Shown piece after piece: positions 5,708 to 59,500 of a stretch of DNA of 64,000 nucleotides (the first letter of the stretch is position 1; each line of letters opens with the position of its first letter). The stretch lies in the NCBI GenBank assembly GCA_037951105.1, contig JBAMJV010007995.1:52113-116112 (forward strand). Direction: 5' to 3'. Both the position numbers and the translations under genes were made by a program. The DNA comes from Echinarachnius parma (Eukaryota; Echinodermata; Echinoidea; Clypeasteroida; Echinarachniidae). Under the pieces are notes generated by a model, which was not told the origin of the DNA, did not search any database, and was given only the letters and a program-made list of their open reading frames with translations.

Positions 5708-5848
5708 CTTGTTGAAGAGGAAAGCTCTCCCGGTTGACCCTGTGAACCTGGTTGAGAGCAACTCTGCCCGGTTGGTGAGATTGGAGTCACAGTTGGCACA
5801 GAAATAGAGCCTGGCTCCACCCATGTGATCTAGGAACACACGACCCAT
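5708..5848 (-). CDS. YPEL5: YPEL5, Yippee-like protein 5, coding exon 1 (start codon)
   Basis: This exon encodes residues 1-47 from the ATG at 5846-5848 to a GTACAT donor. With exon 2 it makes a 123-residue protein, close to the family's usual size of about 121. The Yippee signature is intact: C17-X2-C20-X52-C73-X2-C76, with STRFTG and GRAFLFNK between the pairs. Family knowledge: YPEL5 binds zinc, associates with the CTLH/GID-type (RANBP9-MAEA) E3 ligase complex, and localises to centrosome and mitotic structures. The start is supported because MGRVFLDH opens the family and an in-frame acceptor lies only 33 bases upstream. It lies downstream of HECTD1 on the same strand with its own promoter region between them. 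A degenerate copy of its start region lies 171 bases away at 5966-6046. Confidence 0.95.
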
Positions 5849-5881
5849 GTTGGCTCAATTGGCTGATGATCAAAGAACAAT
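5849..5881 (-). other. YPEL5: YPEL5 5' untranslated part of the first coding exon
   Basis: A good acceptor (CCTCACAG) ends at 5882 on the minus strand, 33 bases before the ATG. This implies at least one upstream noncoding exon. The exon therefore probably spans 5708-5881. Confidence 0.65.
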
Positions 5882-56500: not shown

Positions 56501-59500
56501 TATACTGTATACAGTACATGCAATGTACCGTACGTATACGCGGTACCGAATACCCCGCGGTACCTATGCAGCGCATGCATGTACAATGTTTATGCCGCCG
56601 GCCAGGGCCAGCATGCATATCTGCATATAAAAAAAAAGTAAAAAAAAAATTAATAAAAAATCCCGACCGACCTACCCTAATTTTTGGTTGCCCGTTACGC
56701 CAATCAAACAAATTTTTTTTTTTGGCCTAACCTAGCTGCAATACTAGCCTAGTGTAAAAGCAAAAAATATTGTGATAAACAAAACAGTATCACACAACAA
56801 TATGTCTTTGAATCATAATAATCTTATTAACTAGCTGGAAATGGTGCAATAAAGAGATGCATTCAGACTTTCATGAATAAATCTGCTACTTGAACATACT
56901 GTGAATTACAAATTTCATATAATGGCACAGAAGGCTATCTATCACAGCAAAATTATGGGTTTCTTAAAATAGCTCCTTTAGAAGTACAATAACAAATGAA
57001 TCAAAGAAAACATCTTTATAATCAAAGCATAATCTATCATGTAGCTGAAAATATATTATTTCTTAAAATAGCCAAACAAACGAAGCAAAGATGTCCTTAA
57101 TTCTCTTCCAGCTGCTCAATGTGAATGTCTGCAAATAGCCTCCAGAGTGCTTTACAGTTTAAAGGGTACCACCAACCAAAAATAATATTCTTATAAATGA
57201 AAGGTAACATCTTTAGTATTCCATTCCATCAACAAGTTCACAAAAATATGTTTCCAGAAAAAAATATATAATTAGAAAACGCATCACCATTCCATAGCAC
57301 GCGTTCATGCGGTCTGAATTGCAAAGACTAATGAGTAATGTGTGCAGAGCGAACGAATCGCCCGGGATTCTATAGTCTACAAACGTACGCGTGAATAGCA
57401 TTGGCGCACTCGCAAATGTTTGGCCCGTATGGAACCAGGAAATAGTAGTGGTTCCGTAAGTGGTGGAAATTAATTGCTTTGTTTATGAATTACACAACCC
57501 TTCGCAAAATGTTGGGTATCTAGTTGATATCACAAAACGGTACCAGAACATATAATTATGTGTTATTCTTTGCCTGGTGGTCCCCTTTAATAGCAGAAAA
57601 ACATCCAATCATGGGCTTCCTGCGTGGATCCAATATATACTTGGGAAACAAAGGTATGGGGAATCATGACCTCTGGCTGCCAAATATGGAAACTATTTTA
57701 CAGTTCGTCTCCCCAGGAATGTCTATTAATTTCAGTTTTTAAAGTATACAGTAGAGCTGATAGATGTTTTTACATGTACATGATGTTTTCAATGAACTGT
57801 ATGCGATGAACAGTCGTTAAAAAACAAAAACAAAATCAAATTAAGACATGAAAATATCAGATTTAGAACTGTATTTTTCTTATAACTTTCTTTTTAAAAA
57901 TGCACATATTCAAGGTTACAAATATAAATATCCTGTACAAATTGGTAGTAACAATGATATAAAAGACTCAACTTCTAAATAAATCTTGATGACAAATGTT
58001 TTAGTTCAAGAAATGGTTGTTATTTTTACTCTAACTGGGTCAAGTAATTAAAAGCCATTGGTTCTTACATAATGGTTCTAACATTAAAAAACATCCAATG
58101 GTTCACCCATAGTAAGGATTAAACATGCCCAATTCATAACATTAATGTTACTCAGTAAAAAGGGATCGTGTGGATAGTCTTGAAAAGGACTGTTGGTATT
58201 CTTTCTTGGGTACTAGTAGTCACAAAAAGGACTGCGGTAGGACTACTACAGTCCCGTCCGTAGACCGAAACCCACGACCTCCCTTGCATTAAGACAGATG
58301 AGCCACCAAGTTCAGGTAAGATGGTTGAAATTAGTGTGTACTTACAGTTGCGTCCTCGTGCTTGAGGAGGGTGGAGAGAGACTCGACGCAGGTCTCCAGG
58401 GAGGAGTCCGATGGCTCCATCTTGCCGCACAGACGAGAGACGACGGCCATCGCGGAGTGTAGCGTATCCTTGTGGATCATGGAGCCGTTATCCCGGATGA
58501 AAGTCAGAACGCAGTGTAGACCACCGGACTCGAACACCGCCCCGGACTCGCGGGTGCACATTAGTTCTAGCACCTATCAACGGACGGAAAAACAAGATAC
58601 AAATGAGTTTGTACAAATGTTACACTAAAATTTGCAATGATAACAGTATAATATCATTAATATAAATCTCAATATTTGTAACACTTTGTTTGTACATGGT
58701 AGTGTAGACCTCTGGCCTCGAACATTGCCCCGGGCTTGCAGGTGCACATGAGTTCTAGCACCTAGAGAAAGATTAAAAAACAAACATTATAATGATGGCC
58801 ACAAATAACCCTCAATATTATACTTCTATTATGAGAGAACTAATGATACACTAAAACTTGCAAAGTTGCATAATTGCAATTTATAATTTCAACTTTTTCA
58901 ACACATACGTGTACGTTTTTGGGGAACAAATTTTGTTGTAAACATTGATATATCACAATACTATCATTAAATTATTTTTACATTTCCAAGGATGCTATTT
59001 AAATGCAAGAAACACAATTTTAAACAATAATTTCTCTTTTTTTAACTCTTCTTAGACAAATTTATGAGAAAAAAATGTGTGATTAATGCCGGTACCTTCA
59101 CAATAAAACCTGCAATTTTGCATTAACTTGCATTAGAACTTGTTTACTTTGCTATGATAATCTCCCACGAGAGCAAATGTCAACTGCATTATCGAACATA
59201 TACGGATTCATTGAAGCCTTGAAACTATCCATGACCAAAACAAAAACCAATGAAAGTCACATTTTAGTATACAAAATGCACTCCACTAAAAGATGAGAAA
59301 TAAGCGAGTGACTCACTGTGTGAATGAGAATAATTAGCAGTCGGGTCAAAACATCTGAACTTCTGAGACCTTCTTGTCAGATTTGAGCTCATTGCTTCAA
59401 AGATTGTACAGATTATTCCCCCAGTTACTTCTGCAATGTTTTCATGTTTTCTTCTTCATAATCATACACGTTCCAAAAAAGTGACTGTACAATTATTTTG

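Follow-up and report, generated by a model that had tools for sequence, protein, structure and literature searches.

Small tandem duplications are described by Schimmel et al. 2021 (PMC8355091) as the most frequent class of short insertion (<100 bp) in human DNA, in a study of break repair with fill-in by CST and DNA polymerase alpha-primase. Fly populations often carry partial exon duplications: in 15 lines, Emerson et al., as quoted in PMC2891723, counted 1901 duplications with a median of 367 nt, 624 of which held some exonic sequence but no whole gene. Passages of Lehmann et al. 2010 (PMC2891723) treat the tandem duplication of exonic sequence with a proto-splice site as a route to new introns, and tandem exon duplication is discussed in PMC9013439 as a route to alternative exons. 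Here we analyse a 64,000-nucleotide stretch of the genome of the echinoid Echinarachnius parma (hereafter the window), in which many exons of the HECTD1 gene, and one of YPEL5, have a degenerate copy of part of their sequence, usually of one edge, in a neighbouring intron. These copies are probably what decay has left of ordinary tandem duplications in head-to-tail order, which are frequent in this genome and whose units mostly measure ~70-400 bp. The likeness to the events of Schimmel et al. lies in the short, direct, head-to-tail duplication, whereas most units here exceed 100 bp, the visible ones lie at exon edges, and the repair route is one that we infer. With the Drosophila case of Lehmann et al., as presented in the passages cited, the window shares duplicated exon sequence with a splice or proto-splice site, one copy being intronic, but here the copy enters an existing intron, no new intron position appears to be made, and relics lie beside a large share of the exons. 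Tandem exon duplication as outlined in PMC9013439 likewise involves intragenic duplicated exon sequence, although its duplicates are whole and usable and those described here are partial. A literature search among open-licence papers found no description of exon-edge copies at a fixed distance, nor of relics next to so large a proportion of exons.

The window forms the final 64 kb of contig C7983, in an assembly of 1.2 Gb in 14,790 contigs. HECTD1 lies on the minus strand from ~61,081 to 14,256, with 42 exon matches to the Strongylocentrotus purpuratus protein. Its exon boundaries were taken from tblastn with that protein, which gave 50 matches, eight of which were intronic copies and were set aside, and the boundaries of the two coding exons of YPEL5 were set by eye. 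Over aligned residues, HECTD1 is 84.4% identical to the S. purpuratus protein, 84.3% to that of Diadema, and 72.7-73.3% to those of two sea stars and a sea cucumber, which places the host with the sea urchins or their near relatives. The HECTD1 exons have a median length of 172 bp, a GC content of 0.567 and a CpG observed/expected ratio of 0.62; the corresponding values for the introns are 546 bp, 0.345 and 0.49.

When the 42 HECTD1 and two YPEL5 coding exons, with 30-bp pads, were compared with 1.5 kb on each side (E<0.01), direct copies were found for 17 of the 44 exons and inverted copies for none, while five block-shuffled controls gave 0, 1, 1, 1 and 1 direct and 0, 0, 0, 1 and 0 inverted copies per 44. 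The exons concerned are 16 of the 42 in HECTD1 (2, 3, 8, 9, 12, 13, 15, 16, 18, 21, 24, 28, 33, 34, 38 and 41) and YPEL5 coding exon 1, and this independent scan thus returned exactly the list of a preliminary description made from the sequence alone. The pairs were also recovered by plain self-alignment of the window, a check which that description had proposed, and the existence of partial exon copies in neighbouring introns is therefore confirmed. All 12 offsets reported earlier (171, 174, 176, 180, 182, 182, 188, 192, 199, 199, 202 and 208) were reproduced by the exon scan, and the other five exons have offsets of 146 (exon 33), 277 and 624 (exon 3, split), 312 and 472 (exon 8, two copies), 536 (exon 24) and 631 (exon 18). 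Two details had to be corrected: the copy of exon 33, previously taken to be inverted, is direct (43 bp at 79%), the inverted matches at that place being only 15-17 bp long at E>=1.2, and the best matches per exon are 33-143 bp long, so that some are shorter than the 60-140 bases originally given. The copy lies upstream of the exon, on the acceptor side, in 11 of 17 cases and downstream, on the donor side, in six. The copies, followed by two duplications confined to introns, are as follows.

58701..58783, minus strand: acceptor-side part copy of exon 2 (58340-58573), offset +188, AG kept; 79.5% over 83 bp, E 1.2e-18; the spacer resembles the right flank.
53789..53887, minus strand: first piece of the donor-side copy of exon 3 (54443-54745), offset -624, GT kept, with ~50 bases of intron homology; E 3.5e-18.
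54215..54299, minus strand: exon 3 copy, second piece, ~330 bp from the first and at an offset of -277 to -288; E 5.7e-13 and 1.9e-4.
44856..44938, minus strand: donor-side copy of exon 8 (45193-45327), offset -312, GT kept, spacer T/A-rich (GC 0.14); E 8.2e-16.
44716..44776, minus strand: second copy of exon 8, offset -472 to -490, ~160 bp from the first copy (a self-alignment pair at offset 160); E 3.9e-10.
44164..44252, minus strand: donor-side copy of exon 9 (44343-44537) with an identical donor, offset -180; 85.4% identity over 89 bp, E 1.3e-19.
39713..39759, minus strand: acceptor-side copy of exon 12 (39321-39530), offset +202, with an intronic continuation at 39748-39846 (offset 172); E 3.9e-10.
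38954..39067, minus strand: copy of exon 13 (38670-38849) that has lost the acceptor AG, offset +208; 76.3% identity over 114 bp, E 7.4e-24.
37545..37614, minus strand: two-piece copy of exon 15 (37347-37496), with identities of 94.9% over 39 bp and 92.9% over 28 bp; the pieces lie at offsets +182 and +148.
36329..36441, minus strand: donor-side copy of exon 16 (36544-36684), offset -199, GT lost; 91.2% over 113 bp, E 1.8e-39; sole location in the genome.
35509..35541, minus strand: short copy of exon 18 (34829-34939), offset +631; 33 bp, E 2.1e-5; 405 of 598 spacer bases match other loci.
32598..32640, minus strand: inner-part copy of exon 21 (32320-32466), offset +199; 44 bp, E 7.2e-6.
30068..30135, minus strand: acceptor-side copy of exon 24 (29416-29592), offset +536, AG lost; 82.4% over 68 bp, E 2.8e-16.
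25683..25825, minus strand: acceptor-side copy of exon 28 (25334-25618), offset +182, AG kept; 72% over 143 bp, E 2.8e-25.
21882..21924, minus strand: inner-part copy of exon 33 (21610-21792), offset +146, direct; 43 bp, E 2.7e-7.
20867..20928, minus strand: donor-side copy of exon 34 (21066-21245), offset -176, GT kept; 76.9% over 65 bp, E 3.5e-9.
19101..19171, minus strand: inner-part copy of exon 38 (18851-18997), offset +192; 78.9% over 71 bp, E 5.7e-13.
14822..14906, minus strand: donor-side copy of exon 41 (15010-15174) with an identical donor, offset -174; 85.9% identity over 85 bp, E 2.5e-24; the spacer resembles the left flank.
5964..6038, minus strand: YPEL5 coding exon 1 (~5708-5850), copy of its 5' part, offset +171; 86.7% over 75 bp, E 1.7e-21.
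33936..34716, no strand: intron-only head-to-tail duplication without an exon, unit 393 bp; 95.4% over 394 bp.
27368..27663, no strand: intron-only local duplication, offset 160, beginning 55 bp from exon 26; 82.1% over 140 bp.

The anatomy of the copies fits tandem duplication of a unit that spans one exon edge, after which the complete exon would stay in use and the other copy would fall into the intron; such a unit would be tolerated because the full exon remains, and a unit lying within an exon, or over a whole exon, would usually be harmful. The intronic halves would then diverge and be fragmented by insertions and deletions (indels), and the exon half would keep one constrained partner and so remain recognisable, as both the simulation and the haplotype comparison described below suggest. 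The duplications themselves probably arise from the repair of breaks or nicks with fill-in synthesis and end joining. Edge copies include the splice site and some intron, and in exon 3 about 50 intronic bases can still be aligned. Of the 12 edge copies, 9 retain the splice dinucleotide, GT or AG, and 3 have lost it (scored by eye, with the exact site inferred for exon 12 and YPEL5), which is roughly what drift at the observed divergence would leave. The 12 offsets are split 4/4/4 among the remainders modulo 3, and therefore the reading frame has no visible role. These two results, together with the head-to-tail form of half of the most similar pairs elsewhere, support the preliminary view that the copies look like neutral relics of recurrent tandem duplication. 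No new intron derived from duplicated exon sequence was seen, the copies sitting within introns between exons mapped with the S. purpuratus protein, and no whole, usable second exon was seen either, since the copies appear from their sequence to be partial and some edge copies have no splice dinucleotide.

This pattern is not special to HECTD1 and is found in other genes as well. The wider sample, which covers part of the genome, took in 50 kb upstream on the same contig, ten stretches of 10 kb that contain other HECT genes and, from arbitrary contigs, three further stretches of 10 kb and a 389-base scrap. Coding labels outside the window came from a codon-usage caller trained on HECTD1 and used at a threshold of 14 (at a threshold of 12 it recovered 40 of the 42 training exons and called 25 false segments within the gene span; at 15 it recovered 38 and called 10). 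In a sensitive scan of predicted coding segments, from which repeat-like segments had been dropped (4 of 90 in the HECT-gene stretches, 3 of 55 in the other loci) and in which some arrays were counted more than once, 45 of 86 segments in eight HECT-gene stretches had a direct copy within 1.5 kb and 3 of 86 an inverted one, compared with 1 and 1 for shuffled flanks. The other loci gave 14 direct and 10 inverted copies for 52 segments, and mobile elements weigh more there. Local pairs were counted in 224 kb, made up of the window and 16 loci (L041, L044 and the 389-base scrap being left out): at offsets of 40-1000 bp there were 176 direct and 30 inverted pairs, and none in one shuffled control. 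Filters for repeats and complexity reduced the direct pairs to 139 and then, with multi-copy arrays and pairs matching other loci excluded, to 54 isolated two-copy pairs, of which 22 lie off exons according to the coding calls. At the protein level, eight family searches of the species' own genome gave, by eye, 11 local copies at distances of ~151, 167, 190, 192, 200, 202, 240, 266, 278, 313 and 332 bp, in the families of kinesin (5), SNF2 (3), PI3/PI4 kinase (2) and myosin (1). For chaperonin, phosphatase and AMP-binding proteins there was no clear local copy among the matches listed. Such searches show the best candidates only and favour long copies, and thus form a biased sample, in which the HECT matches are untallied. 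As a separate observation on HECT genes, contig C2731 has a cluster of HECT-domain matches within 13 kb, at ~48-61 kb, with large open frames (583, 862 and 683 aa, and others), and contigs C1577, C3087 and C4175 carry an identical set of degenerate HECT matches with equal internal spacing and are probably haplotype or recent segmental copies.

Evidence that the units are head-to-tail comes from the youngest pairs. Five of the ten isolated pairs with at least 94% identity repeat the unit over its whole length, with units of 280 bp (99.6%), 96 bp (99%), 124 bp (97%), 393 bp (95%) and 97 bp (94%), and in each the match overruns the unit by 1-9 bp; in a sixth pair, 86% of a 134-bp offset is covered. 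In the window, by contrast, the spacer resembles the flank predicted by a tandem origin in only 4 of 15 pairs, namely exons 41, 15 and 2 and the intronic continuation of exon 12; decay could account for the others, as the simulations below indicate. Furthermore, the haplotype-like contigs C7438 and C2407, sampled as L043 and L044 at one HECT gene, are 92-98% identical in their aligned blocks but are set apart by two insertions. The local offsets of these are 280 and ~175 bp, and the second has a 37-bp spacer between its copies and overlaps a HECT exon. The duplication process is therefore recent, with gain in one haplotype and loss in the other being indistinguishable in this comparison. Several pairs in L043 are matched by a counterpart in L044 at a similar offset. 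Relative to L044, L043 carries eight insertions of 51-447 bp, which give a direct view of fast intron turnover.

Exon copies have a preferred range of offsets, which is broader than the preliminary description had it: the narrow range of 171-208 holds within the window, but in the genome sample it widens. Outside the window, the isolated pairs overlapping coding sequence have offsets of 124, 129, 134, 135, 155, 163, 174, 175, 177, 179, 182, 202, 202, 212, 299, 404 and 430 (n=17, median 177), and the isolated non-coding pairs have offsets of 73, 82, 82, 83, 86, 96, 97, 98, 100, 106, 132, 134, 150, 165, 184, 223, 236, 280, 359 and 524 (n=20, median 119). With the window included, none of 32 coding pairs and 10 of 22 other isolated pairs have offsets below 120 bp (Fisher P 2.7e-5), which gives some support to the alternative, also raised in the preliminary description, that copies at other distances were lost. 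The 45 offsets from the sensitive scan comprise 4 below 120, 33 at 120-212 (18 of them at 165-212) and 8 above. Exon offsets inside and outside the window do not differ significantly (P 0.21; P 0.30), and 171-208 in this window would be a fluctuation of the wider distribution. The concentration of exon-edge offsets at ~120-212 bp most likely reflects a filter and not a ruler: units shorter than ~120 bp at an edge would place an identical second splice site near the real one, and the resulting competition could lead to their removal, and long units may simply be rarer. If, as a hypothesis, splice competition is measured as exon length plus offset, the 13 window exons with one simple offset (the 12 above and exon 33) all have values of at least 314 (by hand).

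How far decay alone accounts for what is seen was gauged by two simulations, in which tandem duplications were inserted into the HECTD1 sequence, made to decay through substitutions and indels, and then looked for under the same search settings. Among the exon events that were detected, the match fell short of the unit by more than 40 bp in 52% of cases for 180-bp units and in 71% for 210-bp units, and therefore plain tandem duplication followed by decay yields the observed anatomy. Intron turnover in the second simulation was set close to that in the haplotype data: 84% of the simulated sequence was alignable at 5% divergence, compared with 8.3 of 10 kb for L043/L044, but 59% at 11% divergence, compared with 4.0 of 10 kb for L040/L041 (86-95% identity). 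Real intron turnover may therefore be faster than simulated. We also considered detection bias as a full account of the pattern and rejected it, since the advantage of exons was moderate in both simulations and neither the missing short offsets nor the excess at exons is fully explained by it.

Several results weigh against ordinary tandem duplication and decay as the explanation. The simulated advantage in detecting exon over intron events is just 1.1-1.7-fold, whereas in HECTD1 there are copies of 16 exons, against 2 events confined to introns (repeats and arrays excluded), in spite of an intron target that is roughly twice as large. The spectrum of non-exon offsets predicts that 32% of exon offsets should lie below 120 bp, and none of 34 does (bootstrap P 0.0005); it predicts 10% at 165-212, and 20 of 34 were observed (0 of 20,000 bootstrap draws). 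Of the four offsets below 120 bp in the sensitive scan, three are in multi-copy arrays. The proposed splice filter was not borne out outside the window, where exon length plus offset falls to 238, although exon calls there are fragmentary. In addition, 11 of 15 window pairs show no homology of the spacer to either flank, including the best preserved one (exon 16, 113 bp, 91%, offset 199), and in four of the ten pairs of highest similarity the match is short (35-61 bp, with offsets of 82, 150, 182 and 236) and does not make up a full unit.

The explanation that survives next best is that exon edges are a mutational hot spot, at which duplications of 120-210 bp are commoner, for example through the repair of nicks in GC-rich transcribed DNA, so that both place and size are set by mutation. 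In its general form, exon edges in echinoid genomes would be a preferred site of 120-210 bp tandem duplication, differing from other DNA in rate and in unit size, and a large share of exons (16 of 42 in HECTD1, and about one coding segment in two in the stretches with other genes) would be partly copied into introns within detectable time, supplying decoy splice sites; we regard this general form as rather unlikely, and the hot spot as the cause of the present pattern is slightly less probable still. The counts of exon and intron-only events in HECTD1, and of clusters in the HECT-gene stretches (24 with exons, 20 intron-only), would favour a hot spot even when the larger intron target and the simulated advantage are allowed for, and exons are richer in GC and higher in CpG observed/expected ratio than introns. 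However, the simulation may understate intron turnover, as the comparison of L040 with L041 indicates, the excess in the HECT-gene stretches is only about twofold on a rough estimate, and in the other loci there are 8 clusters of each kind.

The duplication of about one nucleosome repeat was an interpretation offered in the preliminary description, which is partly supported overall in that the relics and their tandem origin stand. On this reading, breaks would fall in linkers and exons would be hit through positioned nucleosomes. The 12 window offsets are tightly grouped, and outside the window 8 of 17 exon pairs, but only 2 of 20 non-exon pairs, fall at 165-212 (P 0.0045 against the non-exon spectrum). 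This excess is weaker when pairs below 120 bp are removed (P 0.018 for all exon pairs), and outside the window it is then not significant (P 0.13). Sea-urchin nucleosome repeat lengths are given as 218 bp in gastrula and 240 bp in sperm in the part of a 2026 review that treats them (PMC12961432), and all 12 window offsets lie below these values, which were published for sea urchins at those two stages. Furthermore, non-exon events range over 73-524 bp with a shorter median, exon events outside the window range over 124-430 bp and fill 120-212, and where eight of the copies end inside their exon, the distance to its far edge is 44-173 bp, without visible phasing (by hand). A nucleosome ruler is rejected as a rule on the offsets of the wider sample, which covers part of the genome, and on the published repeat length; the preferred range is probably not a nucleosome unit, and duplication of such a unit is an improbable source of these copies.

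Still less probable is the insertion of small elements with long target-site duplications, in which the spacer would be the insert and the copies the target site. The sharp ends of the matches and the unrelated spacers in 11 of 15 pairs are what such an insertion would produce, but the spacers of exons 2 and 16, like those of exons 3, 8 and 24, have no match in the other sampled loci (~180 kb). Of seven spacers checked there, six had no match, and that of exon 18 is largely repeat. Moreover, young duplications without any spacer exist, and the four spacers that resemble a flank point the other way. An assembly artefact, with pieces of two haplotypes placed side by side, is barely credible: the assembly is fragmented and seemingly holds two haplotypes of some genes, but the best matches differ by 5-28%, mostly more than L043 from L044, splice sites have been lost in copies, and several pairs recur at similar offsets in both of these haplotypes.

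If decayed tandem duplications are as common as our sample suggests, echinoid introns would be supplied with partial exons and often with intact decoy splice sites, as in 9 of the 12 edge copies. These could feed alternative splicing and the growth of introns, and could mislead gene prediction. Since the exon stays fixed as a reference and the copy drifts, each pair could serve as a small clock for duplication and intron decay, and a genome-wide tally could show how new tandem duplications are distributed in size and how selection acts on duplicated splice sites, both of which would be harder to learn from genomes with fewer events.

Other repeats were also seen in the window and in the sampled loci. 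Within HECTD1, a fold-back element at 15457-16705 has an 89.5% match to L048 at 1238-2482, with its ends also present in inverted order. Three arrays of ~146-151-bp units with a TGACCTTGACCTTTGACC core lie at 30244-31018, 41032-41815 and 47729-48522; GGAC or GGACGTAC repeats lie at the end of the first and of the third, and the third matches L040 at 85-88% and is hence probably a mobile element. At 8993-9600 a unit like ACCCATTGAATTCAATGGGT recurs in both direct and inverted order, forming a nested palindromic tandem repeat, and the region 1550-3440 has a 191-aa open frame that by eye resembles a retroelement integrase, followed by a three-copy local repeat at 2826-3339. Outside the window, multi-copy minisatellites with units of 56, 73 and 140 bp, ~89-99% identical, were found in L036 (5098-5274), L038 (5560-6180) and L039 (9030-10000).

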